Source of the DNA: Thamnaconus septentrionalis
Lineage: Eukaryota > Chordata > Actinopteri > Tetraodontiformes > Monacanthidae
DNA: 64,000 nt
Direction: 5' to 3'
Assembly (NCBI GenBank): GCA_009823395.1
Contig: CM020514.1
Location: forward strand, 4,190,966-4,254,965
Shown: positions 21,923 through 50,071 of the stretch, piece after piece
How the letters are laid out: every line of letters starts with the position of its first letter
Position numbering within the stretch: the first letter of the stretch is position 1
Program-made: the position numbers and the translations under genes
The notes under the pieces: model-generated
Told to the model about the DNA's origin: nothing
The model's database searches: none
The model's input: only the letters and a program-made list of their open reading frames with translations

Positions 21923-21987
21923 TGCTGACTCAGGCTTTTTGAAACAATGGCTTCGCAGATCATCTATCTATCACGGCGGGTATAAAA
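21923..21987 (+). promoter_or_regulatory. gamma2 promoter: MARE, SOX-like box, TATA
   Basis: TGCTGACTCAG at 21923-21933 is the best match in the window to the Maf recognition element. AACAATGG (SOX-type) is at 21943-21950. TATAAAA is at 21981-21987, 58 bp after the MARE start and 69 bp before the ATG. Maf and SOX factors are known regulators of vertebrate crystallin genes. Binding here is inferred. Confidence 0.75.
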
Positions 21988-22049
21988 GTGGCGGTTCTCA
22001 GCCTTTGGAAGTTACCGCCACAATCAGGGAGAGGACCAACCACCTAAAA

Positions 22050-22817
22050 ATGGGCAGAGTAAAATCATTTTTGTTTCCATTTTCGTTCCGTCGATAAATA
22101 TGTATATAATTGTCTGTGCTATGACAGGTGAACTTGCTCACACCGACTCTCATATTTTCAGATCATCTTCTACGAGGACAGGAACTTCCAGGGTCGTTCC
22201 TATGAGACCAGCAGCGATTGCGCTGAGCTGACCTCCTACCTGAGCCGCTGCAACTCCTGCAGGGTGGAGAGCGGCTGCTTCATGGTCTATGAGCGTCCCA
22301 ACTACATGGGCCACCAGATGCTGGTGCGCAGAGGAGAGTACCCAGACAACCAGCGATTGATGGGGATGAGCATGAGTGACTGCATCCGTTCCTGCCGCAT
22401 GATCCCCATGGTATAGCGCTTTTGACCGATTCTTTCAGGCGTGTTCCTAGCGTATAAGCATCTGGAACCCATTTCAAAACATCAAAGCACAATCGAGACA
22501 TAAATCTGTATATGTGCGTGTGTGCCATTTTACAGCACAGAGGCCCATTCAGGATGAGAATCTATGACAAGGAGAACTTCGGAGGCCAGATGAACGAGCT
22601 CTCGGAGGACTGCGACAACATCCAGGATCGCTTCCGCATGTCCGACTGCCAGTCCGCCAACGTGATGGACGGCCACTGGCTGCTGTACGAGCAGCCCCAC
22701 TTCAGAGGCAGGATGATGTACCTGAGGCCCGGAGAGTACAGGAGCATGAGAGACATGGGAACGGGTCCCATGGACATGAGAATTGGATCCATCCGTCGAA
22801 TTGTGGACTCTTGTTAA
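22050..22817 (+). CDS. crygm: gamma-crystallin M, gene gamma2
   Basis: Two-domain lens crystallin of 179 residues starting MGR. Exons are 22050-22058, 22162-22410 and 22536-22817, with introns of 103 and 125 bp. Greek-key signatures are [27 protein letters not shown] and YEQPHFRG. Exon 2 is 249 bp, two codons longer than the commonest 243-bp form, because of the [10 protein letters not shown] loop. Exon 3 is also longer, with [11 protein letters not shown] before the last strand. SAN replaces the SCN/SCQ found in the other gamma-M copies, losing one cysteine. One tryptophan is present (DGHW). AATAAA is at 22861-22866. Its MARE is the strongest of the array. Confidence 0.94.
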
Positions 22818-22869
22818 AGAAACAAATTGGATAGAATGAAAGATATAATAATTTTATATCAATAAAGAA

Positions 22870-23980
22870 TTTATAATTTCTCAATCTTGGTTTTAAAAGC
22901 ATCATTTATTAATGCAGGCACATTTAATGAGCACAATCCTTAACCTGTGTTAGTTTTCATGGGGAAAAAGAGATTTTATAAAATGATAGAGCTTCATTAA
23001 TCCCAAGCAGGGGAAATTCAATCAACACTGAGGTGAATTTTGCTTCACTTTTTTTTTTCTACTTGTGTTCCACAGCACCACTTGGTTATGGTTACACATA
23101 CACATATAGGTAGGTATGAGGAAAGGAGAAAAATAAATCATCAGTGTGTTGCAACAGATTGTGATCAGCACTATGGAATAAATATTCAAAGTGAAAAACA
23201 CATTTCAATTTTATATACAATAAACTGTTTAAGCAACAAATACAAATCACAACAATAATATTGACTTATAAAACCGCATTAGAATCCCCAGCTTGTCTAC
23301 GTAGAGGTTTTACTCTCAGATGTACAGTATTTTTAACTGTGTATGTAAAACGTTAAAATAAGTTTATTATATTGAACATAAAGTCCCTTTTTTCCAATAT
23401 CAGTTAAATCTATATTTCATTGTAATTCTCGTGTTGATGGCAAATGAGATAATTTCCCTTAAAGGCCAAATACACATTTCAACAAATGGTTAATTACATA
23501 GTGAATATATATCATACAACATATATTTATATTTTTCTGTATTGATTACTGTAGGAAATGAATTGGTTCAATGTTGATCTGCAAATGTGCAAAAATAAAA
23601 TTTAAAAAAATTACATAATGAATCACAAAAAATGACCCGTAACAGCATCTTAGAGTCACACTTGGATAAAGTGAAACACATTAATGACCAAATGAGTCAG
23701 GTGCACTTAACAGAGTAAACTGTACACTGAATTTATCTAATGTATTGTATACGTGTACATATGTATATATTCATCCACATGTATAAATCACTGGAAGTGA
23801 AAGCAACTTCACAAACTCTTACTACCCCTTATCTAAAACATGAATATTGTAATATAATAAAAGTAAGAGGCTGCATGAAAATTTAAGATGTAAATAACAG
23901 ATATTAAGATTTAATTATCACATTTAAAATACAGAATAAAATTAGCGAGCAATGCCCATATACATTTCCACAAAGGGTTT
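22870..23980. other. Intergenic between gamma2 and gamma3
   Basis: AT-rich. The block at 22975-23030 with CTTCATTAATCCCAAGC and GGGGAAATTCAAT resembles a tail seen again near 42150 and is probably a LINE or SINE end. Nothing else is recognised. Confidence 0.45.
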
Positions 23981-23982
23981 CT

Positions 23983-23983
23983 G

Positions 23984-24052
<69 letters not shown>

Positions 24053-24290
24053 CACATACATACATATATAGATATATAGATAGATGGATGTGTGTGGTGT
24101 CAATATGTATGTATGTATGTGTATATATTTAGACATGTATATATATATATTTATATACATATATACTGTGTAGTGTATAAATAAATGGAAGTATATTCAT
24201 ATAAATATAAATGCATATAAATATACATATATAGTAATATATATATAGTTATATATATATATATATACACATATATCATTGAATTATCAT
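23983..24290. repeat. (CA)n(TA)n microsatellite with AT-rich tract
   Basis: CA repeats at 23983-24016 pass directly into TA repeats to about 24049. ATGT, GATA and ATAT runs continue to about 24270. The tract is highly unstable and has cruciform potential. Confidence 0.9.
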
Positions 24291-24503
24291 TATCATTAAA
24301 TTTCATATCATAACATTATTTTAGAAGTTAAATATCCAACACAATCTGAAAAGCTGTCCAATCATAGAAGGTTCTTTTCATTTTTAGATGACAACAATGT
24401 GTACATATTGTACAGTTCATGCATTTACACCAAAGAGGTAGAGCACAATGTGACATAATAACCCTTTAGCATCCTGACTGCTCAGTAGGCTTCTATGGCA
24501 TGA

Positions 24504-24572
24504 TGCTGGGTCAGGGATTCACAGAATAAAAGGCCTATACTTTTTTTTTCCCCGCATTGATCAACTATAAAA
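24504..24572 (+). promoter_or_regulatory. gamma3 promoter: MARE and TATA
   Basis: TGCTGGGTCAG at 24504-24514 lies 62 bp upstream of TATAAAA at 24566-24572. The SOX-like box at the usual place is degenerate (AGAATAAA). The upstream block GGCTTCTATGGCATGA resembles the 5' flank of the MARE in gamma5 and gamma6. Confidence 0.7.
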
Positions 24573-24644
24573 GTAACTGTTTCCCCTCAGCACAACATAA
24601 CACACGACAGACAACGCTGGGTGCTGGCTAACAACCAACCAAAG

Positions 24645-25428
24645 ATGCTGGGCAGAGTACGTATCAGGCACAATCCTACCAAAAATAATCGACTGTATCT
24701 CAGTGGAACTGAATTATTATTACATTAGACAACCATGGGAAGGTTAGATTTCAGTTCAGCTGTATGTTGTGTAAAATTCAAGTTTTCTCCTTTCAGATCA
24801 TTTTCTACGAGGACAGGAACTTCCAGGGTCGTCAGTATGAGACCAGCAACGACTGCCCAGAACTGACTTCCTTCCTGAGCAGGTGCCAGTCCTGCAGGGT
24901 TGAAAGCGGCTGCTTCATTGTTTACGATCGCCCTAACTATATGGGAAACCAGTATTTCATGAGAAAGGGCGAGTATGCTGACTACATGAGCATGATGGGA
25001 ATGTCCGATTGCATCAGGTCTTGCCGCATGATCCCCATGGTACATAAATATCCAGATCAATCTCAGAATAATAATGTACAGTGTATGAATGCACTGAAAC
25101 GGTGCTCTCATAGTTGATAACATTTCTTATCCTTGTATGTTCTCAACAGCACCGTGGCCAGTTCAGGCTAAGGATCTTTGAGAAGGAGAACTTCAGCGGC
25201 CAGATGAATGAGCTGAAGGACGACTGCGACAACATCATGGACCGCTACCGCATGTCCGACTGCATGTCCTGCCAGGTGATGGACGGCCACTGGCTGATGT
25301 ACGAGCAGCCCAACTTCAGAGGCAAGATGATGTACCTGAGGCCCGGAGAGTACAGGAGCTTCAGGGACCAGGGCATGAGCGGCACCAGGTTCATGAGCAT
25401 GAGGCGCATCAGGGACGCTTGCAACTAA
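24645..25428 (+). CDS. crygm: gamma-crystallin M, gene gamma3
   Basis: Two-domain lens crystallin of 177 residues with exons 24645-24656 (MLGR), 24797-25039 and 25150-25428. The N-domain Greek keys start FYEDRNFQG and VYDRPNYMG, and the C-domain keys IFEKENFSG and MYEQPNFRG. It has the Met-rich loop MSMMGMSDC, one tryptophan (DGHW) and the C-terminus RRIRDACN. The first exon has an extra Leu, unlike the MGK of most copies. AATAAA is at 25436-25441. Introns of 140 and 110 bp have GT/AG ends. Confidence 0.94.
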
Positions 25429-25444
25429 AATGCTGAATAAATCT

Positions 25445-26285
25445 CACAACGAAAACCCTCCGTGTTCTTTTGATGTGAAGCCACTGCTTGTCTGAGGGCT
25501 GGACAGCTACAAATCAAAGAATTCACATTAAATTTAGAATTACACAGGTGTAAAAATGGCATAGTCCCTTGTTAGACTTTCATGCATATAAAAGCTACCT
25601 GCTGGAAAATAAAGAATGCATTTTTGTACAAAAAAACATCAACAGTCGTATCATTTCATCAACAAGGAAGACTTGGTTTGCCTAGGAAACGAGCTACTTG
25701 GTATACCATAGGTCTCCAACTAGTCTTTCCATTCTACTCTGACACCCACAATTGTCACACACTTCATATTTTTTCTTTATTTAGGCTATTTTCTGCAGAC
25801 CTATTTTCTCCTTCCTTTGGACTATTCACTGTAAACTATTCCTGATGAACCAGATGACTGGTTAGAAAGTCCCAGTAGATAATACATTTGGGAAATACAC
25901 TCAATAGACTGGTACCAACATCAATGCAACATGAAGTGTTAGATGCATTTTTAGAGTTGACTTTACTTTAATCTAAATCCAAATTCAGTTAACTCAATAC
26001 AGAATTCATCGATTTAAATTACAGTTAAGGTATTGGGGAACTGCAGTCAAAGTGTGAACGTGTCACAAGTTGCGACAGCAGCTCATGGACACATTGATAA
26101 TTAATGTCTGAACAAAGCTAATCTATTTAGCACCACCATGCATGTTTTTGTCCATGGATTCATTTGTTGAATAGAATTAAGGAAAAATAAATGAGGGTTA
26201 ATAGAGTCAATAGGGTCAAGTACCAAAAAAGCCAGATGACCTTAACCAGTTGATAAAAAAGGCAAATGAAATAGAATCAAAATAA
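25445..26285. other. Intergenic between gamma3 and gamma4
   Basis: AT-rich, no gene recognised. Confidence 0.5.
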
Positions 26286-26289
26286 GGCA

Positions 26290-26900
26290 AAGAAATGAAG
26301 GTATATGAGCACAAATGTTGTTTACAAACAAAACTAGCACTAATACTAATCCAGTTTGGCTACTACAGAAGAAAGCTATACGAATTGTGTTTTTTTGATT
26401 TAGTGGATTACAAAACTGTACAGATAATCTATAAAGTACACAGTAACCTGCTTCCTGACTGTATTCAGAGGCTGTTTGAAACAAGAGAGAGTCAATATGA
26501 ACTGACAGGGGATTAGGAATGTTTAAAAAACCAAGAGCAAGGAGAAACATAAAGATCAGATGTATGTCTGTTAAAGGGGTGAACCTGTGGAAGGGTTGTG
26601 ATGAGGAATTCAAAGTATGTAGTTCACTTTGCGCATTAAAAAGAATGTTTAAAAACAAGGTGGTAAACAAATATGAAACTGGGGAATGATTAGCCTGTTT
26701 ATGGAAATGATTTGCTGTTTTGTTCATGTATGGACTATTACAAAAATGAGCAGCTTCCATGATATGTCAAGAGGGTAGGTAACATAAGCTTCAGCTTCAG
26801 CCTGCACCTCAATAAAATGTTGTTGTCGCTGTATCCTTTGTTATCTGTTTGTGTGTATTCATACAATTATGACTGAATAAACTAAACTTAACTGAACTGA
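26290..26900 (+). pseudogene. LINE 3' end fragment
   Basis: Plus-strand translation shows the C-terminal tail region common to fish LINE polyproteins: the YYRRKLYELCFFDLVDYKTV and IIYKVHSNLLPD blocks, followed after frame changes by a GVNLWKG-like block and KNKVVNKYETG. The end near 26780-26890 carries ATAAGCTTCAGCTTCAGCC and a GACTGAATAAACTAAAC-type tail. Stops and frameshifts make it a relic. Confidence 0.65.
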
Positions 26901-27720
26901 AACTAAACTAATCTATGAATTCTTTTCATTTCTAAAGACTGTGGTTGTCGTAGATTTCCAGTGCATCGGACCAAAAGGTGTAAACATTATGTCACAATGT
27001 TCAAAGCAAATATTTACATTTTCAGGATAAAAGTATAATCAAAGTTTCAGACTAACACAATTTTCCAGCTAGTGAACCGTTAGGTGGGTCGCTAGCGGGA
27101 GGGTTGACTGTTGAAGAAAGGACCAAAATTCACAGGCCAAAATACACCCTGGAGGAGCAAAGGGGTAGAGCGGTCTGCTGGAAAAACCCAGTAGATTCCG
27201 AATCCCGTGACAACAAACCTGCACACAAAGTTACGCAAACGGGCCCCTTCAACAAAGGCCCGACAGAGCCTTGTCAGTTATTAAAGAGTATAATGACATT
27301 CACCAGTTACTTTTAGATAAAAATATATAATCAATTCCATTAATAAATCATCAATTTTCTGATATTTACACCCGCTCAACATTTGTATTATTCTTTTGGG
27401 AATTGTTAGTCATGATTTTAAATTGTAATTTCATTGCCCTCTTTTCTGTATATTCTGTCTACTGAGTTTTGACAAGAAAAAAAAAATCTAAGTGTCATGC
27501 TAGTAATAAAAGAAGTTGCCAGATACATTTGCCTCAGAAGAGGCAATACTGGAAAAATGACTTTTGTGTCGGCCCGACAAAGGATTCAGTAAACAACACA
27601 ATGTGCTCATGTGTAATTTAACTTTTCCATTTAAAAGAGTATTGAAAAAAAAAAATCTGTCCATGGGTTTCACTGTTTGTATATGAATAAGCGCCTCAAA
27701 TTCTATAGGCTTTTATATTG
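26900..27720. other. Intergenic upstream of gamma4
   Basis: No gene recognised. A short frame at 27104-27316 has no known motifs. Confidence 0.45.
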
Positions 27721-27723
27721 CAT

Positions 27724-27787
27724 TGCTGTGTCAGGATTTAAAACAATAGCGTGGTTCACAGTCTTTGTCTGCGAACCAGGTATAAAT
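27724..27787 (+). promoter_or_regulatory. gamma4 promoter: MARE, SOX-like box, TATA
   Basis: TGCTGTGTCAG at 27724-27734, AACAATAG at 27742-27749 and TATAAAT at 27781-27787. The order and spacing match gamma2, gamma5, gamma6 and gamma7. Confidence 0.72.
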
Positions 27788-27869
27788 GTTCCTTGTCCAC
27801 ACACATAGGGCATCAGTTCAAACTGTTCTCTCAGTTCTCTGGTAGATCTGGAATAACACTGCAGTCAAC

Positions 27870-28578
27870 ATGGGCAAGGTACTACACAACAAAGAGGCAG
27901 CAGTCAACACATATTTCAAATGGAAATATAATTATTACTTTTGGCCTAATTCAATATCTTTCACAGATCATCTTCTACGAGGAGAGGAACTTCCAGGGTC
28001 GCTCCTATGAGTGCATGAGCGACTGCTCCGACATGTCCTCCTACCTGAGCAGGTGCCAGTCCTGCAGGGTGGAGAGCGGCTGCTTCATGGTGTACGACCG
28101 TCCAAATTTCATGGGGAACCAGTTTTTCATGAGGAAGGGCGAGTACGCCGACTCCATGAGCATGATGGGAATGAGCAGTGGTATCAGGTCCTGCCGCATC
28201 ATTCCCATGGTAGGTCTCGTACACCTTCTGCATTTTTGTTGTTGTTGTGAGTCACAAATGAAACAAAGAGTTCACCTCTGTATTTTCTCCAACTCAATAC
28301 AGCACCGCGGCCAGTTCAGGATGAGGATCTACGAGAGGGAGAACCTCAGCGGCCAGATGAATGAGCTGACGGACGACTGCGAAAACATCCAGGAGCGCTT
28401 CCGCATGTCCGAGTGCCAGTCCTGCCAGGTGATGGACGGCCAGTGGCTGATGTACGAGCAGCCCAACTTCAGAGGCAGGATGATGTACCTGAGGCCCGGA
28501 GAGTACAGGAGCTTCAGGGAGCAGGGCATGAGCGGCACCAGGTTCATGAGCATGAGGCGCATCATGGATATCTGTTAA
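27870..28578 (+). CDS. crygm: gamma-crystallin M, gene gamma4
   Basis: Lens crystallin of 175 residues with exons 27870-27878 (MGK), 27967-28209 and 28303-28578, and introns of only 88 and 93 bp. The short introns leave a long continuous open frame through both, but the GT/AG borders match every paralogue, so the introns are taken as real. The N-domain begins FYEERNFQG and has the loop MSMMGMSSG. The C-domain has IYERENLSG, where Leu replaces the usual Phe of the Greek-key signature, a change shared only with gamma8. DGQW replaces DGHW. It ends MDIC. AATAAA overlaps the stop (28577-28582), with a second at 28581-28586. Confidence 0.94.
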
Positions 28579-28589
28579 TAAATAAAAAC

Positions 28590-29610
28590 ATTGATCAAAA
28601 TAATGTATGACTGTCTGAATGAATGAGTAAATAAATAAATATCAACGAAATAAAATAAATAATTCAACTTTGAAAATTCTGGTGTTATGTCTTCAATCTT
28701 CTATTTTGACTAGTTTTTTTTCCTGTATTGTAAAATTAACTCTCAAATTTGACAATTTGAGAGTGACTTATTGGATGGGTAATTATAAAAAAAACAAATG
28801 TGCATTAACACATACTTATTTGATAAAATATAATGAAAATGTGAATAGTGCAATTACAATTAGCTACCATAAAGGAATAATGAGAAGGTAAAGACATAAT
28901 GGGAGATTTTACTGATTATGCACTTTCCTCTGTTCCAAATGGAGCAAATGGAGTTATCTAATTCACCCACCTAGTGTCAAATTACACTCATATTACAATT
29001 ACGGTCACATTACGGAATGGTTCACAGAAATACCGTATTTCAACTTAAACATACAGTATTTCCCAATTATTCACCATTTACAGTTAAAAAAAAAAAAAAA
29101 CATGTCTTGTAGTCATGTATGTTTGAATGTATGTCTGAATGACATGAAAGATGCAGTGGAACCTTTGTGCATATTGCGCATCAACATTAAACTCACTGAA
29201 ATATTTAACCTGCGTTTGTCCAATTCATCCCTTGCCAAGTCCCAATCCCCATGGTTACTGTTGCTAATGCCTGGCAAGCTTTCACTTTCACTTTGTTCAC
29301 GCCAGCATGTCAACGTGTATATTTCGACAACATTGCTGAATGGTTCAGGAACATGAGAGGCAACTAGACAGAGAGGACTGAAATATGCATTTGAGCAGCG
29401 GAGTAATATGAATGAAGAGGACATTCAAATCAAGGCGAAGGCTAACTGTTCTTACTGCCAATCAAACGTATAAAAGAACATGTGGCCAGTGAGCGCCACC
29501 TCTAATATGCAGAAAATATGCATGTGTATGATGAAAAGTAGACACACACACTCTGAGACAAGACAACTGAGTAAACGTAACTGAACAGTTTAATTCCCCC
29601 AAGAACTGTT
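28590..29610. other. Intergenic after gamma4
   Basis: AT-rich with a poly-A run near 29086. No gene recognised. Confidence 0.5.
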
Positions 29611-29611
29611 C

Positions 29612-29650
29612 ATTCCCTAACGCACACACACACACACACGCACATGCACA
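29612..29650. repeat. (CA)n microsatellite
   Basis: ACACAC run interrupted by CGCACATG. Confidence 0.8.
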
Positions 29651-29659
29651 CACTCACGC

Positions 29660-30560
29660 ATTCACTATTAAACAATTATTAAGTAAGTCAGAATCTTAGA
29701 CTGAAGCATTACAAATTAAAAGCATTTCGTAATCACATAGTTAACACCTCCGTGGCTCCTTATAATTCCACAAGTTTAGTTACTGAAGTTGTGAACTTGT
29801 GAACATGAACTGCAAATAAGCAACATTATTCCCCTTCCATCCTACCACTCACAACCAGGTATGTTGTTGGTTCACTTGAATTACAAAACACATCTTCAGG
29901 CAATGCAGGACATTGAAACCCTCTGAAAGAAGGAGATAAACGTTAACTAATACTTTATACATGAGAAAGTCATTTTGGTATTTAAAAAAAAAAAGCATGA
30001 CTTACATGTGTGATGGCCTCTCACTGGTCTTAAAGTTAAAGCTATGCTATAAAGGTATGTTATTAAGGTTGCTATTCCCTCAAACTTTCAATGCCAGCCC
30101 TTCTTTGCTCATTTTTGTGAACCTGATTTTGTCACTTTTGTGTATCTAAGCATGTAAAAGCTCAATAAAGACGGATTGCCAGTTTTCAAGACTCTGGGTT
30201 TTATTATTCAATGTGCCTACTAAAGTGTGTATATGGATATCTTGCCAATTTCATTTGTAGAGAAATGAACAAGTGTTGGTTTAACATTTCTTTAATTAAC
30301 ATAAACTTCAATGTTATATATCGGATTTTTCTTTCCCGGTAACATGATTTAAGTTTCCTGGCTTAAGTGCATTAACTAGTAGATCAGACTGAGAGAGAAA
30401 ATGTTTCCTTACAAATCAGTGGTCAAAGGGATGTTTTCAGAGGTGTGCGTTTGCTGCCCCTTTATTGTACATGTGAAAGTGCTCATTGTTACGACTTGCT
30501 CATGAATGGATCTATTCTAAAGTCTTCTAGGGGATCCAGTCGCATAGAAACGCGACAAAT
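29660..30560. other. Intergenic upstream of gamma5
   Basis: AT-rich, no gene recognised. Confidence 0.5.
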
Positions 30561-30594
30561 ACCCCTCAGCACTCTATAGGCCTCTATACCATGT

Positions 30595-30656
30595 TGCTGG
30601 GTCAGGGTATTTAGACAATGGAAGCCACAGATCCTTTAGGTTGGTCAGGTATAAAA
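30595..30656 (+). promoter_or_regulatory. gamma5 promoter: MARE, SOX-like box, TATA
   Basis: TGCTGGGTCAG at 30595-30605, GACAATGG at 30614-30621 and TATAAAA at 30650-30656. GGCCTCTATACCATGT precedes the MARE, is nearly shared with gamma6 and gamma7, and extends the conserved module upstream. Confidence 0.75.
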
Positions 30657-30707
30657 GTAACAGCTAAAACAGACCCACCATCCGTGTAGCATCATCTCAC
30701 AGCAATC

Positions 30708-31448
30708 ATGACCATGGGCAAGGTAAGAACTGAAAGCAACCAAGTATTCTAAATGACAATTTTCATTCATACAAAACCATTTTAATGTTGAGCTCCTGTG
30801 TCCTTTTTTTTTTTTTTTTTTTAATCCATTTTTAGATCATCTTCTACGAGGACAGGAACTTCCAGGGTCGCTCCTATGAGTGCATGAGCGACTGCTCCGA
30901 TATGACCTCCTACCTGAGCAGGTGTCACTCCTGCAGGGTGGAGAGCGGCTGTTTCATGGTCTATGACCGTCCCAACTACATTGGAAACCAGTATCTGATG
31001 AGGAGAGGCGAATATGCTGATTCCATGAGCATGATGGGAATGAGGGACTGTATCAGATCTTGTCGCATGATCCCCATGGTAGGGGTTTTACATGGATTGT
31101 GCTATTTATTTTATGGTTATACCCCTCTCGATGAAACTTACTGATCTTTAAAATGTTTCTTGCCCTGAACTGTAGCACCGTGGCCAGTTCAAGATCAAGA
31201 TCTACGAGAGGGAGAACTTCAGCGGCCAGATGAATGAGCTGAAGGAAGACTGTGACAACATCACAGAGCGCTTCCGCATGTCCGACTGCCAGTCCTGCCA
31301 GGTGGTTGACGGTCACTGGCTGATGTACGAGCAGCCCCACTACAGAGGCAAGATGATGTACCTGAGGCCTGGAGAGTACAGGAGCTTCAGGGAGCAGGGC
31401 ATGACCGGCACCAGGTTCATGAGCATGAGGCGCATCATGGATATGTAA
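30708..31448 (+). CDS. crygm: gamma-crystallin M, gene gamma5
   Basis: Lens crystallin of 176 residues with exons 30708-30722 (MTMGK), 30836-31078 and 31176-31448. Greek-key starts are [27 protein letters not shown] and MYEQPHYRG. The Met-rich loop is [10 protein letters not shown] single tryptophan lies in VVDGHW. The C-terminus is RRIMDM, one residue short of the paralogues that end in Cys. No AATAAA lies just downstream. ATTAAA at 31476-31481 is the likely polyadenylation signal. Intron 1 holds a 20-bp poly-T run before the acceptor. A second in-frame ATG at 30714 gives the usual MGK start. Confidence 0.94.
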
Positions 31449-31718
31449 AAACATTTGAATCTTAGGGCAATGGTTATTAAAGATCTTTGAAGTATCATTG
31501 TCTAAACTGTGTTGTCTCTTGACCTTACGTTTAATCTTTGGGCTTTTAGATATAAGGGGTTGCTACACTACCCTGAGTTTAAATATTGTGTGTCTACTAA
31601 CTAAGGTTAAGGAGCACTTGAGCTCGGCAAGATGGCTCCTACTGTGCCTATGTGTGACAGATGATCTACCATGGCTCCATGGATCTGCAGATTTTACTTT
31701 CAGTACTCCTGAAAATAC

Positions 31719-31747
31719 TACTACCACCACCACCACTACTACTACTA

Positions 31748-31806
<59 letters not shown>
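31719..31806. repeat. (ACT/ACC)n(AAT)n microsatellite
   Basis: ACT/ACC trinucleotides lead into about 20 AAT units. Confidence 0.95.
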
Positions 31807-31809
<3 letters not shown>

Positions 31810-32034
31810 TTCTTGCCACTCTGAGGACTTCAATCTTGAGATGCCTTTGGTTGTGATTTAACATTTTACAAAAATGTATAAAGATTGATTGATTAATCTG
31901 CCTGTTAGCAACTCCTCTAGGAATGTGAGACTGAAATTAGGATAGTTCCTAAAACCCAACTAACCATTTCAGACACTTTGCATGGACTGCATTGAGCTGA
32001 TCAGATGGGAAGGAAAAGAGTATAGTCTGTTGAT

Positions 32035-32599: not shown

Positions 32600-33400
32600 T
32601 TGATCAGCATGGGTGGATGAGAATATCAGGAACAACTTGCATTGTGCAATCGCACAACAAGTCCAACTGTGTTGCATGTCAAACTTGCAGCGCTTGCCTC
32701 GAGACCGGCAGGGAAGTTGTGCACCAGTTAAACTAGTTGCCCCTTTCTACTTGATACCAGAACGACTTGGGGAGTTGCCGCTCATCCGACCCCAGATGAA
32801 GATTACAAAACGTAAATGCAACACACCACACGGGTCATTTAATCTGCCGTTGTATGCAGACGATACTGCATAACCACCTGGCATTGACGGATTTAAGGCC
32901 AGAAGCGAAACAGCATTGCAGCGGCATGATGGGAATCTTTTTTTTCCCCAATGGATTAATAACATTACCATTATAATCAGCAGAGATTTGCCCACATCAC
33001 GAGGGATACAATGAAAGGGTTGGTGGAGCAGATTGGTGCGACCTCTCTTATGGCTCACCAAAATAAATAGACAGGCGCTGGACATGATCTTGGCTGAGAA
33101 GTCGGGGGTGTTTACAATGTTTGATAGTGTTTTGTGGACTTTTACTCCCAGCAATACGGCTCCAGACGGCAGTGTGACACCCCTTTCCGACAAATTGGCC
33201 AACAACGCTTCTGCGGCTAATCCCATCACCACCTGGATGGAGGCAATGTTAGGCTGGTTGAGTGGCACCCTGAACTGTTTGCTAGTTGCATTAGCTGCTT
33301 CTGCTACAGTCCTGGTGGTGTGTGGGTACTGCTGCATTCCATGCATCCAAATGCTGGTCCAACGCCTGACTGGTGGCCAGTGACACATCAATAAAGACAC
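32600..33400 (+). pseudogene. Endogenous retrovirus envelope relic (surface remnant and transmembrane subunit)
   Basis: The frame at 33033-33383 resembles the C-terminal part of a retroviral transmembrane envelope subunit. It has a helical region, a conserved block before a disulphide loop, and a long hydrophobic membrane span (about residues 83-105 of that frame) ending in a Cys-rich stretch. The cysteines expected in the loop are replaced by non-cysteine residues and the fusion-peptide end is not in this frame. Upstream, at 32600-33000, short broken frames look like a surface-subunit remnant. CAATAAAG occurs at about 33390. The copy is interrupted by stops and frameshifts and cannot make a full envelope. 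Confidence 0.6.
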
Positions 33401-33404
33401 TGGC

Positions 33405-34175
33405 TAATTAACAACTTCTTATTATTATACTTGGTCTCAAGAAATTGTTTTCTCCATCCTCCTAGAAGGTCCCACGTTGGTTGCCCTGAGATTTCCTTGA
33501 CACGTGCACATGCGCACACACATACACACTTGAAATACATATATTTATATATGCATGCATGAAAAACTAATGAAATAAAAAACATTTAATGTAAAGGCCT
33601 ATTAAGAGTTTAGCCTGCTGATTTTATTGCTAACCAGTGAAAAAAATTTTCTGGAAATGAAACCCTAACTTTCCAGACAATACTATTATATTTTCTCATG
33701 GTTATGAGATCGAAAATTCTGGATTTAATGGGAGTGAAGGGAATATTTTTTCGCCATTATATTTTGGATAATCTTTGGCATTTTCAAGTTTTTATCATCA
33801 TCATCATGCAGCTTTTTTTCATCAAAAATATCAGTCTCATGTCATCAAACTGATATTTAAAGGATTCAAATCCTGATTATTATTCAACATGTGACATATA
33901 TTTTTTAAGTTCATCAAAAGAGTTGATCCAAAAAGTAAAAAGAAAATCTTATTCTTTCGCGTTTTATAGCAGTTTTTGAAAGACAACATTTTGTCCAGTA
34001 GTGTGTAGAAGTATTGTAAATTTTCCATACTATTCTAGTATTGTACTATAAATTTGATGATACACAAAAACTAACTACCTAACTTGACATTTTGGATAGT
34101 CATGTGCAATCATAATCATAATCATACTGTCCGAGTCTGCCTTCCCTTTTATTTGATAACCAAACCAAGCCTCCG
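33405..34175. other. Intergenic, no gene seen
   Basis: AT-rich. No LTR could be delimited after the envelope relic. Confidence 0.45.
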
Positions 34176-34179
34176 CAAG

Positions 34180-34620
34180 CTGTAGAGTCTCTTGAGTTTT
34201 ACCTCAAGTTAAATAGGAGCTCCTGCAGCGGTCTACTACTGGTCTCCTGTACACCCTGTACAAGAAGGGGCAGAGCCAAGCGTTCTTCCGCTTGTGTGGA
34301 GATGATGACCATGTTCTACCACACGGTGGTGGCCAGTGCACTCCCTGCTGCAGTGTGTTGGGGAGGCAGCCTTACAGAAAAGAAGCAACAAGCGATTAGA
34401 CAAGCTAGTGAAAAAAGAAAAAGCAGGCTCAGTGCTGAGCAAGAGACTGGATATGCCAAGATTTACTGTATGGAGGAGAAAGGCGCACTGAAGCTATGAT
34501 GGACAATAGACGCCCTTTCCACAGCCTCCTTCAGTGACAGAGGAGAAGCTGCAGCTCCTCTCGCTGCTCTCCAGAGTGGAGCACATCAGGAGATCCTTTG
34601 TCAGCTGACACACATCACAC
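34180..34620 (+). pseudogene. LINE 3' coding end fragment
   Basis: Plus-strand frames resemble the last part of a fish LINE polyprotein: MFYHTVVASALPAAVCWGG at about 34311-34370, then after indels a block with TASFSDRGEAAAPL and an IRRSF-like end. It is interrupted by stops. Confidence 0.6.
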
Positions 34621-34624
34621 ATTT

Positions 34625-35890
34625 GCCTTTCTAACTATTATGGTACAAGTCTTTCAAACTATCTATAATAGCTTCTGTTATTGCCTTTGTTTTACTATTG
34701 TCCTATCCTGTTTGCAATTGTTGTTATAGTTTTGGTCAAATTTAAAACTAAAATTAGAACCTTGTGAGTGGTAAAGTGCAATTAGGAGCATGTGTGCAAA
34801 TTGAATGGTATGGTATGGCTCTATACAATCAAAGCAAAACTGGACTGGTTAGGTGGACTGGTGGCTGTATATTGTCAAAAAAAAACTATAAAAGCAGGAA
34901 TGTTGATTGTTTCTATATGTCAGGCCTGTGATGGAGGGGCCCCACTTTTAACCTTGTGATGGCCACTGATGATGCATTCAGGTTCAAAACGCATCATCTG
35001 TGGCTCTGAATAGATTGATGGATGGATGGATTGATGGATGGATGGATATGTAAATAGATCAATGAGCAGTTCAGCAAGTACAAAATAGGCAGCAGAAAAG
35101 ACCTTCATTTAACTTTTAACAAAAGAGAATCATCAACGTTCAGGAAAACAGGATGTATATGGAAAAAAAACACTAATCGAACAAAAACATCTGTCTAATC
35201 AAAATGAATGCAACAAATTTAAAGACACATGCCAAGAGGTCATCAAGAAAAAACAAAATAAATGTTTCGGCACACAAGATCTAAAAATATTCTAAAATGA
35301 ACAGAGATTTATAAAGTCAACACACTTTTACCCAGTTAACTGGCATAATAAACAGGCACAAATAGCCATTTGACCACTGAATGTTTTTACATTTTACCAC
35401 TTACAGATTTAGACACTGACAATTCTTTCACCTGCCAATGCGTCACAGTTCGTTTTGTATGCTCAAGAGCAAAACAGCTATGAAATGTACTTGTTGATCT
35501 CCCTGCCAAATACCCCCATTTACTCAAGCTGTGGCACATCACTCAAGGAGAAGGTGAGTAGTTTACTTTTTATTGCATAATGCAGTGCAAGCAACCTCTG
35601 AGTTAAATTAGCAAAATGCTCATGTAAATTGATTCGAGACATTTTAGTAGTTTAACTGAAGATTTTAGAGGATTATTTGAAATGTTATCTTCAAGCCAGC
35701 AGTGAAGCCAGAGATTGATGATTGGTACATTACAAAAAGATACTAACTAAAAAATTGAAAATTCAGATGGAAAAAATAAAAGAGCTTGCGGCCATGGACC
35801 TACAAAAGGTGAATATCTATTGTCCTCAATTGCTCGTTCATGTCATTTTACGGCACAGTAACGCTGTGTGTTAAACACAGAGCTCTATAC
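34625..35890. other. Intergenic upstream of gamma6
   Basis: Contains a (GATG)n run at about 35014-35047. Otherwise AT-rich with no recognised gene. Confidence 0.5.
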
Positions 35891-35895
35891 CATGT

Positions 35896-35960
35896 TGCTG
35901 GGTCAGGGATTTAAATAATGGGGGGCCCACTGAGTGTACTGGGTCTGATCAAGTATAAAA
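35896..35960 (+). promoter_or_regulatory. gamma6 promoter: MARE, SOX-like box, TATA
   Basis: TGCTGGGTCAG at 35896-35906, AATAATGG at 35914-35921 and TATAAAA at 35954-35960. The left flank GCTCTATACCATGT matches gamma5. Confidence 0.75.
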
Positions 35961-36030
35961 GAGAGGGTTAAACTCAGTGGGACAGCAGTGTAGCAGTAAC
36001 AGTAGCAACAACCGCAGCTCACCTCCGAGA

Positions 36031-36794
36031 ATGACCACCACTGATATGAGCATGGGCAAGGTAAGTCTTAAATTGCCGCACAGTCACAACTGAAAATGTT
36101 CTTACAGTCATGAAGGGGAAAAAAAATGGAAGACATTTCCAATCAAATCAAATGTTTCTATCTGTAAAACCCTTTCATCGTGTCTCAGATCATCTTCTAC
36201 GAGGACAGGAACTTCCAGGGTCGCTCCTATGAGTGCATGAGCGACTGCTCCGACATGTCCTCCTACCTGAGCAGGTGCCAGTCCTGCAGGGTGGAGAGCG
36301 GCTGCTTCATGGTCTACGAGCGCCCCAACTTCGTGGGAAACCAGCATTTTATGAGGAGAGGCGAATACGCTGACTCCATGAGCATGATGGGTATGAGTGG
36401 TGGTATCAGGTCCTGCCGCATGATCCCCCTGGTAAGTTTAGAATAGGAAAATTTCATATCTCGGTCTCGTACAGATACGAATTGTTCACTAATTTTCTCT
36501 TTTCTTTTGGCATTCCAGCACCGTGGCCAGTTCAGGATGAGGATCTTCGAGAGGGAGAACTTCAGCGGCCAGATGAATGAGCTCCTGGACGACTGCGATA
36601 ACATCCAGGAGCGCTTCCGCATGTCCGAGTGCCAGTCCTGCCAGGTGATGGACGGCCACTGGCTGATGTACGAGCAGCCCCAATTCAGAGGCAAGATGAT
36701 GTACCTGAAGCCCGGAGAGTACAGGAGCTTCAGGGACCTGGGCATGAGCAGCATGAGACCCACCAGCATCAGGCGTATCATTGACCTGTGTTAG
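36031..36794 (+). CDS. crygm: gamma-crystallin M, gene gamma6
   Basis: Lens crystallin with exons 36031-36060, 36189-36431 and 36519-36794. The first in-frame ATG gives a 182-residue protein with the unusual leader [10 protein letters not shown]. The third ATG, at 36052, gives the standard 175-residue MGK form. Greek-key signatures are [27 protein letters not shown] and MYEQPQFRG. One tryptophan (DGHW) is present. The C-terminus is IIDLC. AATAAA is at 36810-36815. The first 139 bp of exon 2 (36189-36327) are identical to the inverted gamma8 gene. Confidence 0.94.
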
Positions 36795-36829
36795 ACGTGT
36801 CCACCTTGAAATAAAAACTGAGAGATAAC

Positions 36830-38340
36830 CCGATCTTTGCATGATACTTCCTCTTTAAGTTTCAGGAACACTGTGCCTCATGCAAGAACATGTTTGCATT
36901 CGCGTCGTGAGTTCCTCTTATTTTTTTCCCCCGTACGATCGGCTTGTACAAATGTGCCACGTCATGCTCTTAATGTCAGACGCTTAAATGTAATCGTGAT
37001 GAATCACATCATAAGGAAGGACTTTACCAGTTCAGAGATCAAGAAAGAAATCGGTCATTTTTAGCAGAATTAAGGATACTGCAAAAGCCAAGTAGTGTGA
37101 AAAAAATCACAAGCGCTGTGAATGATGTGTCGCCTGTCTGTCACATTGTTACAGAAATGGTTCGATATGAAAATGGCGTCAAAAAGACGTCCAGCCAAAA
37201 TAAGTCAGCCAAGACGGATCTGGCTTCACCTTCCGTTTTCCCACTTATAAACAGAGGTAAACTAACTTTCAATTCAATCTTTAGTTGTCATAACCAAAGA
37301 TATTGTTCAGAGCGTCCATAGACTGCATCGCAAATGATATATAAAAAAAAAAAGTACAAAATGATGCAAGAAGTTATGGGCAGTGAAAGTGCGTCATTGA
37401 GCAGCCTTTCCTCCACCAGCAGTGCACTGCCTTCCTTGGACCAGCAGGAGCCGCCAATGCGAAGCCTGCACTCGCCAAGACGCACACGTTAAGTGCAGCA
37501 AACTTGATTCATTAATAATATTTATTATATTAATATATAAAATATATAAATTGTTTTGCTTCATTTGAAATTTGTTTGATTACTTTACATTGAAGGGTTA
37601 TCCAAAAATAATCCATTATACATTTAAATGAACAATAGTACCAGGCTATGTGAATAAAATATCCATTTTTAATTTGAATAGCAGAGTTAAACTGGATACA
37701 TATTGATGAGTAAAACATAAAATTGCCTCAAAGAAAAACCAAAAAAACAACTTAGGTTTGAATAACAGCAGGATAATGGCGCAAAACTCGTACATCAGGT
37801 CTGGAGCAATCGTAATATTTGTTTGCGCCTGAGAGAGGATTGAAAATACTAGAAAATCGGTGTTTAAGGCAATTTGTCCCAAATCGCGTGAATGAATGTT
37901 TTGAGAGCAAATCGGCATACTTGTGATAAACACAAAGGTCCCACCAGACATTTAATGAGAGGAGCCTGGCCTCTGACCTTTTCACACACCTTTATAGCCC
38001 AGTTATCACACGGGGGCATCAAGACCGTGTGTTCAACAGGTGGGAACTATTTATGGTATAGATTGATTGTTCAGGCGAAATAAACAATCAGTCAACAGGG
38101 GCAGCCACAATAATCTTAATGTGCCTCACCACATTAGCTCCCTCCCTCATTTTAAATTAAAAAAAATACCTAGTTAATGATTAATATTGCAGCATTATAA
38201 TACTGTAAAATATTAAGGATGAATGGATGGAAACAACGCATCTGGCGAAACTGACCAGACGTGAACAAAACCACCATTACTGGAGTGTTGCGCCTCCCTG
38301 AGTGTTCTCTGCTTTTGAAATTACCTCTGTTTACTATCCT
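36830..38340. other. Intergenic between gamma6 and gamma7, left part
   Basis: Mostly AT-rich. A Ser-rich open segment at about 37360-37491 and a frame at 37097-37321 are discussed as a finding but not called. A poly-T run lies at 38350-38376. Confidence 0.45.
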
Positions 38341-38580
38341 CTTTCTAGTATTTTTTTTTTTTTTTTTTTTTTTTTTAATGATTCCGAGTGGGAATACGTG
38401 TGCCATATTCAAATGCGCTGATAGCTTTAAAATTAAACAATGGAAGGAGAAGGAATGCAAAACTCATGAGCCTCAAATGCACGAAGAATGCCCCTCTCTC
38501 TTTCCATACAATAAACAAACAAACAAACAAATGAATGAAGCTTTAGACATTCAACAAGTTAGAACATAAATAGCATGTAA

Positions 38581-38700
38581 ATGGCAAAAGTCATTCCGAT
38601 ATTCAAAGCTGGAAATAAACATTTATTGTCCAACTACAGAGCGGTTTCTCAGCTTTCACAGTTCTCAGAAATACTAGAAAAGTCGCTTGACGAACTCAAT
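38581..38700 (+). pseudogene. LINE reverse transcriptase fragment
   Basis: The frame starts AKVIPIFKAGNKHLLSNYR and continues to EILEKSL, the first conserved block of a non-LTR reverse transcriptase. It is cut by repeat family A immediately downstream. Confidence 0.7.
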
Positions 38701-38940
38701 ACAAGACATAATATTTTCACGGGGGTCTGCTGGAGACTATCTCAACTTCATAGGGCTAAGGCACCGTGGACAAGTCACCAGTTCATCGCAGAAAGACAAA
38801 GGACAGACAACCATTCGCACTGACACACACATCTACAGGCCAATTTAAAGTTCCCAATTCAGCTCACATGCATGTTTTTGGGTTGCTGGAGGAAGCCGTA
38901 GTTGTAGAGAACCCACGCAGACACACAAGAGGAAGAAAAG
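38700..38940 (+). repeat. Dispersed repeat family A, copy 3
   Basis: Blocks GGTCTGCTGGAGACTATC, CAAGTCACCAGTTCATCGC, AATTTAAAGTTCCCAATTC, GCATGTTTTTGGGTTGCTGG and GAACCCACGCAGACAC appear in the same order as in the copy at 12243. The left end is truncated inside the LINE fragment. Confidence 0.8.
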
Positions 38941-39053
38941 GCCTTAAAGAGCATGTTAAAATTTTTATTTCCAAACTAAGGGGGGAAGCTGGGTTTCTAC
39001 TATAAAAACAAGTCATATTTCCCACTCAATAGTCGGAAGCTTCGCTAAGCTGC

Positions 39054-39400
39054 CTCAGCCACCATTGTGCACTCTATGCTAAAGCTGACATGCCCTCCTT
39101 GAGCACAAGGCGTTTCAAACATTGGATGACCCTGGTTTACAAGGTTTTTCTTGGCATGGTTCCTATATATTTATGTACTTTACTTTGGAGGACTGGATGC
39201 CATTACTCCCTTCATTCAAATGACATTCTGTATCTTTCTGCCCCCCGTATTGATACTGAAATCGGTTAAAAAGCAATCCATTTCTCTGCTCCCTCTTCTC
39301 AGAATGATCTCCAATCTGAGCTGAAATTATCAGAGCTCCCACCTACCAGACCAGTCAAAGAATCTGGCTGTCAACACGGGGCCTCCTGTTGCGGTTTGAC
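39054..39400 (+). pseudogene. L2/CR1-type LINE 3' fragment
   Basis: The frame reads through a C-terminal LINE tail: HWMTLVYKVFLGMVPIYLC, then YSLHSNDILYLSAPRIDTE, then [20 protein letters not shown]. Stops separate the blocks. Confidence 0.7.
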
Positions 39401-39559
39401 TCCAAGAGGCTGGCTCCCAGGTTTATTGGCCCAACCTGGCAACCCAGCTGGTTCGGGAGAGTCCCATAGTTCTGTGTTGGGGTTCTCATGGGTGTGCGAA
39501 AGGGTTGCATCCCTGCGCCAACAGCTCAGGAATTTGTCCTGACTGCTGTTAGCTTATAT

Positions 39560-39910
39560 GGACATCATAGGAGTCACTTTTTGGAGTCCTTGGGATGACG
39601 CCGGACAGTGTTCCGAAGGGGAACTCCATTGTCCTGCTTTGTGACTTGACAACGTGACCTGGAGGGGCGTGATTGGGAGGAATGGCCTGCCCGATCTAAA
39701 CCCGAGTGGCGTTCAGTTATTAGATTTCTTTGCCAGTCGCAGTGTGGCCCTAACCGACACCATGGTCCTCAAGGTAGTCCATTTGGCACCAGCACAGCCA
39801 ACGCCGGATGTCAATGATCGTCTCATCAAACCTTCAGCCAAATGTACCGGACTCACGGGTGAAGAGAGGTGGTGAGTTGTCAGCTAATCACCGCCTGGTG
39901 GTGAGATGGA
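39560..39910 (+). pseudogene. LINE endonuclease fragment
   Basis: Plus-strand frames give TWRGVIGRNGLPDLNPSGVQ, LLDFFASRSVALTDT and, after a frame change, a HRLVVRWIRW-like block. These follow the layout of the endonuclease of a common fish LINE. The coding frame is broken before and after. Confidence 0.7.
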
Positions 39911-40271
39911 TCAGGTGGCAGAGGAGGAGGATACCACACAGACATGGTAGACCAACAGGAAGAGAGTTTCTTCCGCATCCTTAGGGCTGTGGGGGACATA
40001 GAGTCCATATGGAACTTGTTCCACACCGCTATTGTTGATGTGGCTGTTGTTGGCTGCGGTCGTAAGATCGCTGGGGTTAATCGGGGTGGCAACTCTTGTA
40101 CCCACTGGTGGACACCTGGGGTGAGGGGAGGCCATTATAAAGTGACACCCATTGCTCTTCAACTTGTCCTTGAGTCAAGGATCTCTCCTTTGTGGTTTCT
40201 TGTTTTTTAAGGGTTTTCGTCCCCTGGTTCTAGCATCTAAGGCTACAGTGTTGAATTTGCAGAGCAAACTC

Positions 40272-40545
40272 ATGCATCCATCCTTCTTGTACACCCACTT
40301 TCTCCTGCAGTCAGTGTTGCAGGGGTTTGCTGGAGTTTATGTCAGCTGTCCTAGGGTGATGGCAGTTCATTGCAGGGCAACGCATTTAGAGTTCCCTATT
40401 TGCCTCACATGAATGTTTTTGGACTGTAGGAGGAAGCCAAAACACCAAGAGAGAACAAATGCAGACACAAGGAGAACATGCAAACGCCACAGAGGACTAC
40501 GACTGGGATTGAACCCACCCCGTGAGGCAACAGTGCTAATGACTA
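40272..40545 (+). repeat. Dispersed repeat family A, copy 4
   Basis: Blocks CATGCATCCATCCTTCTTGTA, TTTGCTGGAGTTTATGTCAGC, TTTAGAGTTCCCTATTTGCC, TTTTTGGACTGTAGGAGGAAG and ATTGAACCCACCC occur in family order. It is followed by a (GATT)n run at 40552-40581. Confidence 0.8.
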
Positions 40546-40551
40546 CACACT

Positions 40552-40581
40552 GTGATTGATTGATTGATTGATTGATTGATT
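40552..40581. repeat. (GATT)n microsatellite
   Basis: About seven GATT units. Confidence 0.9.
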
Positions 40582-40599
40582 GCTTTATATAATTTTGCA

Positions 40600-42440
40600 T
40601 AAATCTTAGTCCGATGCAACCTTCCATTTGGTCCATTCTCAGGAAACCCCGGTTGAAATGAAAGTTCAACTTACTTAAAATTAAAGACGAGCATTTTTAT
40701 GACAAAATAGTAAAACTTAAAACAAAATATCTGTCTAATTAAAATTCAACACACTGTGCGCACTTTAGGTACAGAAATGATATAGTCTAATATAGCATGC
40801 AATGTGCACATAGTCAGAGCATGAAGACCATTTAGCGGAGAATTCAGTTCAACAGGCTGATGTCACCAATATAGTGATAAACATTCACACATTTCCAATA
40901 AAAGTTGAACAAAATAAGGAAGTTATTTCATTTTATTTCATTGAAATTTGAATAATCGCTATGCTAGACCCACAACATGCCTGCCCAGTGAGCCATCGCA
41001 GCATCTTTTTTGGTATAGTTTCTGGTAAGATCTGTCTCTCCCTGTGTGCCAAAATGCTGTGCCATTTTTGTTGTCACTCCCCCACTCACCACCGAAGGCA
41101 CCCATTATTCTCGGAATTGTGAACAGACACTAAAGACCGGTGCATTGTGATTAGTTTATGTTTTTTCAGTGATATTACTTGTATCTACAATATAAAGACC
41201 AATTCTGGCAGGACTTCAGCGCTGTTCAATTTCTAATCTCCACTAAAGAAATTTTCCACCGAGTACAAAAGTCACAATAGTCAGACCAAGTGATTGGACC
41301 GAAGGTTGGAGACAAGTCTAAATTATCATGTCATGAGTTTCAATACCTCAACAAAGTTGTAGAGTCACCCCTCAGTACGTATAACTCATAAAACCTTAGC
41401 TTTTGTCCACTGTCTCTTCTCTAATGTTCCCTAGTTGGCTTTACTCATCACTGATATCACTTCAAATCCTTCACTTATTGTGCTAATGCATTTACTGCTG
41501 TCCCTGATCCTAAAAACTACAACCTTATCTTTCGCATTTTTGTTTTTCTTTGTGAACCTTTGTGTTCTTGACAAGTTATTGCCCCACGCTCAACCTTCTT
41601 TATTCTTCAAGGAAAGAAGCTTTTTTTTTTCTCCAGTGCTGACCGCGCAATGACTTTCAAATGAGTTGACCCTTTTTTTTTTAAGCAAAGACGCAGGGAT
41701 GTGCAATTACAAAGTATTATAAATAGTTCTTATTGCCTCCTGGCTGAAATGGGTGTTTTATTGAATCTTCCACATATTTAGAAGAGAATAACTACTCATA
41801 TGGGTGCCGTCATTAACATGGGAGAGATATCGATGGAGTGTTGATGTGCTTTGCAAAGTCCCAAAGGGAACATTTCTAGAATTTACTTTTTTAGATTTCA
41901 TTGGGAGATTAGAGATGCCTTTTTAGATTTACATGAAACATTGGTGAAGTGAATTTGTAATGTATTAAAATACCTTTAAAATCAATAGATGAATTATTAT
42001 TTAAGATCATGTATTGGGTTAATACAAAAAATATGGCAACACCTTTATTTTTTGGACAGTGTTATTTACAAACCAGACAATCCAGTATATTGTGTCTGTC
42101 AGCCTATTAAATGTTTTCTGCTGTTTGTAGATAGAATAGAGTAGAATAGAATAGAACGCCTTTATTAATCCCACATATGGAGCAATTTGCATAATTACAA
42201 ATTCTGTATGACAGAAAAACACACATGAAATACTTTATTTAAAAAATACATACAAATAATAATATTGATAAAACGTTTGGGAAATAAATGACCCATGTAA
42301 TTAGTTGCTACAGAAAGGTTTGCTTTTGAAAAACATGGTCTCTGTTGTTATGCAGCAAAGACAATGCAAAGTGGGGCCTCTTCTAACAAATGCAACCCCC
42401 GCAAATCACAATCTTTTGAAGGTCACTCTCAATTGTACAC
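40600..42440. other. Intergenic upstream of gamma7
   Basis: AT-rich. At 42127-42200 the block GCCTTTATTAATCCCACA followed by GGAGCAATTTGC resembles a LINE/SINE tail, with a related copy near 22975. No gene was recognised. Confidence 0.45.
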
Positions 42441-42459
42441 AGGGGCCTCTGCTCCATGT

Positions 42460-42522
42460 TGCTCTGTCAGGAGTTTAAACAATGAGGTCATGTATCCTTT
42501 GGGTGGCAGGTCAGGTATAAAA
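42460..42522 (+). promoter_or_regulatory. gamma7 promoter: MARE, SOX-like box, TATA
   Basis: TGCTCTGTCAG at 42460-42470, AACAATGA at 42478-42485 and TATAAAA at 42516-42522. The left flank GGGGCCTCTGCTCCATGT and the TATA flank TCAGGTATAAAAG match gamma5. Confidence 0.75.
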
Positions 42523-49900: not shown

Positions 49901-49983
<83 letters not shown>

Positions 49984-50034: not shown

Positions 50035-50071
50035 GGTCTCTGTTGGAGAGATTCCCCATGTTTTCAGGCCT

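Follow-up and report, generated by a model that had tools for sequence, protein, structure and literature searches.

A putative Maf and SoxB promoter module preceding the gammaM-crystallin genes of Thamnaconus septentrionalis

We describe a short promoter module in a 64-kb stretch of the Thamnaconus septentrionalis genome (the window; C14:4190966-4254965 of 474 Mb), in which a Maf recognition element (MARE)-type core and a SOX-like box stand ahead of the TATA box of gammaM-crystallin genes. The sequence and positions of the module are observed directly, and we consider it quite probable that the 70-80 bp or so ahead of each TATA box form an ancestral TATA-proximal Maf and SoxB promoter by which genes of the gammaM clade are expressed in lens fibres. 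The MARE, asymmetric and half-palindromic (TTGCTGNNTCAGG in most members), would be bound by a large Maf dimer of the c-Maf or L-Maf type, and ACAAW(G), which lies on the same strand about 20 bp or two helical turns further downstream, by a SoxB factor; the two factors would jointly recruit the TATA-bound machinery in fibre cells. The module would be older than the spread of gammaM genes to at least three other contigs and would have been kept by purifying selection. From the DNA we infer the identity of the factors, their binding and cooperation, the lens-fibre activity and cell type, and the selection.

Protein searches place ten gamma-crystallin-like genes in the window, gamma1-7 on the plus strand and gamma8-10 on the minus strand, with three-exon models whose second introns are GT-AG; the gamma4 and gamma5 models hold 2-3 extra residues at the end of exon 2, which were carried into the synonymous divergence (dS) and the protein tree. 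The genome contains at least 120 matches to PF00030, the beta/gamma-crystallin domain, 48 of them whole-domain exons that give 24 gamma genes at two exons each. Ten of these genes lie in the window, eight on contig C1 and two each on C19 and C3, while C7 and C13 carry a single gene apiece. The protein tree built from the full set of 24 contains a 14-gene gammaM clade (support 100/99) comprising gamma1-8, the C7 and C13 genes, the C19 pair and two C1 genes (C1_13.5 and C1_14.6), while the minus-strand genes gamma9 and gamma10 fall outside it and are without a MARE at the promoter. Typical of a gammaM gene behind the module is gamma2 (22050-22817, +, three exons). The gamma7 protein (42585-43389, +, three exons), one of two among the ten window proteins given a domain scan (the other being gamma9), has two PF00030 stretches, and its top match among solved structures, in a search made with gamma7 alone, was the entry named gamma M7 at 269 bits, ahead of gamma B at 229 and gamma S at 173.

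The initial annotation had placed MARE-type cores before gamma2-7, and the counts bear this out. Exact matches to TGCTGNNTCAG number five in the 64 kb, all on the plus strand (21923, 24504, 27724, 30595 and 35896), and these five are the promoters of gamma2-6, with none elsewhere in the window; 100 shuffles gave a mean of 0.77 and a maximum of four, so that 0/100 reached five. With one mismatch allowed, 21 cores were found against 18.7 expected, which is chance, and the gamma7 core at 42460 (TGCTCTGTCAG, 8/9) therefore rests on its position and not on its rarity. Across the clade, the core matches in at least 8 of its 9 letters in ten promoters and in 7/9 in four (gamma1, gamma8, C1_13.5 and C1_14.6).

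The architecture can be followed from promoter to promoter on the plus strand. The gamma2 core TGCTGACTCAG (21923-21933, from the exact-match count) is followed by the SOX-like box AACAATGG (21943-21950), with ACAAT 21 bp after the MARE start, and by the TATA box (21981-21987). At gamma3, an upstream block GGCTTCTATGGCATGA and the core TGCTGGGTCAG (24504-24514) together span 24488-24514 ahead of a TATA box at 24566-24572, with no clear SOX box; at gamma4, the core TGCTGTGTCAG (27724-27734), the SOX-like box AACAATAG (27742-27749) and the TATA box TATAAAT (27781-27787) follow one another. The gamma5 promoter combines block GGCCTCTATACCATGT with core TGCTGGGTCAG (30595-30605; together 30579-30605), SOX-like box GACAATGG (30614-30621) and a pre-TATA GGTCAGG with the TATA box (30643-30656, TATA from 30650). 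At gamma6, block GAGCTCTATACCATGT and core TGCTGGGTCAG (35896-35906; together 35880-35906) precede the SOX-like box AATAATGG (35914-35921) and the TATA box (35954-35960). Finally, gamma7 has block GGCCTCTGCTCCATGT with its core TGCTCTGTCAG (42460-42470; together 42444-42470), SOX-like box AACAATGA (42478-42485) and pre-TATA GGTCAGG with TATA box (42509-42522, TATA from 42516). The SOX-like boxes are thus where they had been described, in gamma2, 4, 5, 6 and 7, with ATAATGG instead of ACAATGG in gamma6; the upstream block reported for gamma3-7 could be recognised in four of these promoters (gamma3, 5, 6 and 7), the gamma4 version being degenerate. The degenerate MAREs that had been described for gamma1 and gamma8 are present as 7/9 core matches at -61 and -59 relative to the TATA box, namely TGCTTGTTCATCA (18025-18037, +; ACAAA 33 bp after its start) and TGCTAATTCATCA (47413-47425, -; ACAAC 31 bp after its start). 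These two genes share the MARE variant TGCTNNTTCATCA, and C1_14.6 has TGATGACTCATCA at -44. GGTCAGG stands immediately before TATAAAAG in gamma5, gamma7 and C7 (L036:2887-2901, -), with looser versions elsewhere, and in gamma5 it is a repeat of the right half of the MARE.

The full 13-bp palindrome TGCTGACTCAGCA, which a review (PMC9903618) gives as the Maf consensus and in which the extended homology region of Maf touches the TGC flank, is only partly present in the alignment of gamma2-7, C7 and the C19 pair, where the left arm and core are found and the right arm GCA is lost. The letters common to all nine rows are TGCT and TCAGG; C13, which lies outside the alignment, has TCGGC. This pattern fits a half-palindromic Maf recognition element in which the left arm TGC and a centre of the phorbol ester response element (TRE) type are kept and the right arm is not. 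According to the same review (PMC9903618), a half site can suffice for binding by Maf homodimers if its 5' flank is AT-rich.

Clade specificity is likewise a direct observation in this genome. A plus-strand core of at least 7/9 at -70 to -40 is present in 14/14 gammaM-clade genes and 0/10 other gamma genes (Fisher P 5e-7 if the genes were independent, which they are not), and at 3/69 other TATAAAWR sites of the same DNA, only one of which has 8 or more. Of these ten other genes, C1b_5.8 alone has a 7/9 core on the opposite strand, and random windows of equal width reach 7 or more in about 6% of cases; the TATA boxes chosen for gamma10, C1_3.9 and C1_10.7 are weak candidates. Two of the genes without a MARE at -40 to -70, gamma9 (50034-50110, -) and C1_19.6 (L032 near 9927, -), share ACAATACTTT upstream of the TATA box, perhaps a different promoter type of non-M genes.

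The TATA box begins 58, 62, 57, 55, 58 and 56 bp past the MARE start in gamma2-7, within the 55-62 bp originally proposed. The rigid helical spacing that had been read into this interval does not hold as stated: over the ten promoters whose cores match in at least 8 of 9 letters, the MARE-TATA distance varies from 47 to 62 bp, and the tight interval is instead that between the MARE and the SOX box. In eight promoters (gamma2, 4, 5, 6, 7, C7, C13 and C19a) the MARE start and SOX core lie 19-22 bp apart with a standard deviation (SD) of 1.30, compared with an SD of 4.69 for MARE to TATA over the same eight. When 13 promoters are considered (C19b being left out as a near copy of C19a), a plus-strand ACAAW occurs at 19-22 bp from the MARE start in eight (gamma2, 4, 5, 7, C7, C13, C19a and C1_13.5), including 4/7 of those outside gamma2-7; the chance of ACAAW per 4-bp window is 1.6%, and among its 13 occurrences at other places, from 100 bp ahead of the MARE as far as the TATA box, no two share an offset. 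The promoters without it there include gamma3 and gamma6, which have ATAAW, gamma1 with ACAAA at 33 and gamma8 with ACAAC at 31. SOX-to-TATA distances cluster near 26-28 or 34-39 bp, and this clustering, together with the ACAA 31-33 bp after the MARE in gamma1 and gamma8, hints that spacing changes by about one helical turn. Helical phasing of SOX to TATA gave R 0.68 at 10.5 bp (P 0.018 if the 11 promoters were independent, which they are not) and R 0.67-0.68 also at 10 and 11 bp, a weak test that we keep as a lead. It is conceivable, if doubtful, that in this ancestral promoter Maf and SoxB, separated by two turns, would occupy one face of the helix and work on the TATA box as a single unit, with geometry and not exact distance under selection; a correspondingly tentative extension is that spacing may have evolved mostly by about one helical turn, from 19-22 to 31-33 bp or the reverse for MARE-SOX and between 26-28 and 34-39 bp for SOX-TATA.

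The conservation around the module is directly observed to be bounded. Local-alignment scores of 60-bp segments were compared with the 99% point of random pairs, the null also being of 60 bp, and the -70 to -10 segment exceeded that point in 13/15 pairs of gamma2-7 and in 8/12 pairs with C7 and C19a. The adjacent -130 to -70 segment did so in 1/15 and 0/12, the four segments beyond -130 in gamma2-7 in 0, 0, 1 and 0 of 15, and the five upstream segments set against C7 and C19a in 0, 0, 0, 2 and 0 of 12, so that similarity ends near -70 to -80. Downstream, intron 1 (up to 60 bp) passed in 1/15 pairs of gamma2-7 and intron 2 in 0/15, and the 5' untranslated region passed in 0/15 within gamma2-7, 1/18 against C7, C13 and C19a, and 1/3 among those three. 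Shorter 50-bp segments (-62 to -12) passed in 12/15 within gamma2-7; a comparison of 80-bp promoter segments (13/15 and 9/12) was set aside, as scoring them against a 60-bp null flatters the promoter.

These boundaries bear on whether recent duplication or gene conversion alone, with copies that are young or homogenised along with their exons and no selection on the module, could account for the resemblance. The genes are tandem copies, exons are fairly similar in gamma4-8 (dS 0.18-0.42; mean synonymous difference of exons 0.32), and conversion of exons is plausible; yet in comparisons of these same genes the introns, the 5' untranslated regions and whatever lies upstream of about -80 show background similarity or little more, and a conversion tract would therefore need to span only about 80 bp every time. 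The module also occurs on C7, C13 and C19, away from the cluster. We regard this explanation as largely refuted and very improbable. The conserved block is short and bounded on both sides, and selection on the promoter therefore fits better than recent copying. The suggestion that a lens module was copied with each duplication holds in that a proximal module is shared, but not as merely local copying, since the module lies before gammaM genes on C7, C13 and C19, has decayed on C1 and is missing from the remaining ten gamma genes.

Prediction of held-out promoters provides a further direct observation. A MARE, SOX and TATA matrix trained on gamma2-7 only (gamma3 being excluded from the SOX part) was run over the window and loci from other contigs, 287,000 positions on both strands, and the 25 best positions were listed. 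Ranks 1-5 and 7 were the training promoters, the held-out C7 promoter came sixth and the near-identical C19a and C19b promoters eighth and ninth, after which the score dropped from 32.5 to 25.2. Rank 10 was a C19 site between the two genes (L037, about 5946), which we take as chance and not as a promoter, rank 11 was gamma1 and rank 12 a window site without a known promoter. When each of the six training genes was left out in turn, it ranked first or second among non-training positions. The C19 gammaM pair (L037:3901-4455 of G000:C19, with a copy about 2.9 kb downstream) is intronless, exons 1, 2 and 3 being fused where the C7 gene has splice junctions, and the MARE-SOX-TATA promoter is still upstream; this arrangement points to intron loss via cDNA-mediated recombination, not to an ordinary retrocopy.

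At the scale of the genome, TGCTGNNTCAG has 8,673 matches in 474 Mb (about 1.2 per 64 kb), against 1,389 for the backwards pattern, and the word is therefore common for reasons other than the module. The upstream-block pattern CATGTTGCTGNNTCAGG is also found at the C19 pair. The initial annotation had raised the prospect that such elements recur equally often at random positions, and this is not what was found: of the five places in 474 Mb that match CATGTTGCTGNNTCAGG, four are gammaM promoters (two of them the near-identical C19 pair), and no place matches the backwards pattern. The fifth match (L040, on C1) was rejected as such a promoter, there being no TATAAA in the 160 bp from its start. 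A core followed after 33-47 bp by TATAAAA, a pattern that by design misses four of the ten good promoters, has 22 matches, six of which are gammaM (gamma2, gamma5, gamma6, C7 and the C19 pair), and its backwards control has three. Adding ACAAW at 19-22 bp leaves 5/22, all five gammaM, and a looser A[CT]AATG or ACAAAG at 18-23 bp leaves 7/22, the six gammaM promoters and one C1 site at which no gene was recognised (L047; G000:C1:16839867-16839931), where TGCTGTGTCAGG is accompanied by ATAATG at 21 bp and TATAAAA at 58 bp. None of the 16 non-gammaM matches comes within 470 kb of a PF00030 exon on its contig, no such exon being listed for C8 and C11, and five of them (three on C3, one on C7 and one on C17) resemble copies of a single repeat. 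We read four of this group (L047, L055, L060 and L064) and set them aside as lens promoters, no crystallin exon being recognised downstream by eye in a reading made without a family search.

The letters of the core could also be claimed for other factors. Tini and colleagues reportedly described a retinoid-responsive mouse gammaF promoter in a title of 1993, and the core might accordingly be taken for a nuclear-receptor (RAR/RXR) element, with GGGTCA in the gamma3, 5 and 6 MAREs and the pre-TATA GGTCAGG as retinoid half-sites. RGKTCA half-sites do occur in 5/13 modules (gamma3-7) against 14/104 control segments, but they are not found in gamma1, gamma2, gamma8, C7, C13, C19a or either C1 gene, and the letters shared by the nine alignment rows, TGCT and TCAGG, are not GGGTCA, which leaves a retinoid element very unlikely. 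Binding by AP-1, Nrf2 with a small Maf or another basic leucine zipper pair instead of a large Maf, which would make the core a stress- or FGF-responsive element, draws on TGASTCA in 3/13 modules (gamma2, C1_13.5 and C1_14.6) against 1/104 controls, and on the GC-N3-GTCA of gamma3-7, which we take to resemble an antioxidant response element. Nevertheless, the AP-1 core is absent from 10/13 modules, and TGCTNNNTC, with the TGC flank that Maf contacts according to PMC9903618, is present in 11/13 (gamma1-8, C7, C13 and C19a) against 3/104 controls; we consider this alternative improbable. The retinoid, AP-1/Nrf2 and pure-duplication explanations thus fit less well than a Maf and SoxB promoter. 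Other candidate sites were sought in the 13 modules and discarded: forkhead RYAAAYA and the cAMP response element TGACG occur in 0/13, an Oct-like ATGCAA in 3/13, and HSF4-type GAAnnTTC or TTCnnGAA in 0/13, HSF4 being reported as bound upstream of mouse gammaF in PMC2653017.

Several observations weigh against a Maf and SoxB promoter common to the clade. All of the evidence is DNA sequence from the genome of one species, the -70 to -40 window and the 7/9 cut-off were set after a first look at the promoter data, and the per-gene counts are not independent because the genes are related. Outside the cluster the alignment signal is weaker, with the 50-bp segments passing in only 7/18 comparisons against C7, C13 and C19a and 1/3 among those, and a 30-bp MARE piece (scored against the 50-bp null) passing in 7/15, 1/18 and 0/3 in the same three groupings. 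The 22:3 ratio of the core-TATA pattern is about that of the core alone, so the genome-wide count is no evidence and only the identity of the sites is. The SOX box is the less regular partner: gamma3 has no clear one despite a perfect MARE, the C1_14.6 module is without any ACAAW, and ACAAW by itself is common (62/104 control segments). In the matrix scan, gamma8, C1_13.5 and C1_14.6 were outside the 25 best positions, and C13, whose TATA box is the variant GCATAAAA, reached rank 13 with a score of 19.2, lower than ranks 10 and 12, two sites that apparently match by chance. A simple search had missed exon 1 of the C13 gene, which was recognised on reading 3' of the rank 13 site; as the score of this site lies within background, the score alone would not have singled out the C13 promoter.

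Two further sequence elements of the window lie near these genes. A long ATT microsatellite occupies 49901-49982 in intron 1 of gamma9, and 16470-16720, upstream of gamma1, looks by eye like a short interspersed nuclear element derived from transfer RNA.

The combination of Maf and Sox input has precedents in other crystallin genes. Synergy between the two is said to be the title claim of a 2004 paper by Rajaram and Kerppola, and SOX and Maf input to the chicken delta1-crystallin lens enhancer is reportedly the title of a 2002 paper by Muta. That enhancer (SOX2, Pax6 and Maf) resembles the gammaM module in its combined SOX and Maf input but is a separate element that also uses Pax6, not a TATA-proximal promoter common to a gene family. 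A further likeness is to the proximal promoters of mammalian gammaA-F, the same gene family with the same factor classes, Maf and Sox1/2, and as PMC2653017 already has Maf and Sox1 regulating mammalian gamma-crystallins, the Maf-Sox concept is not new. In the fish module the order is fixed, MARE before SOX, the site starts are about 20 bp apart, and the genes served are gammaM, which PMC11979377 describes as aquatic-specific. The betaB1-crystallin proximal promoter is similar in that a short start-site region with a MAF site drives lens expression, 150 bp of human CRYBB1 being active in zebrafish (PMC11979377); by contrast, the core with TATA was not found near non-gammaM crystallin genes, judging from the genome matches only, the beta promoters themselves not having been read. 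No report of a fish gammaM promoter with a MARE was found among titles and abstracts of the openly licensed literature, which is weak evidence of novelty. What would be new is the fish gammaM module itself, its restriction to one clade and the rule for its spacing.

Crystallin promoters are a classic example of how genes are controlled by tissue, and here a module singles out a 14-gene clade within one genome and predicts family promoters that had not been seen. The clade also supplies natural variants in spacing and site loss, in gamma1, gamma8, the two C1 genes and gamma3 without its clear SOX box, and these variants make Maf-Sox cooperation and its spacing rules testable with reporters of about 100 bp across the family, not one promoter at a time.

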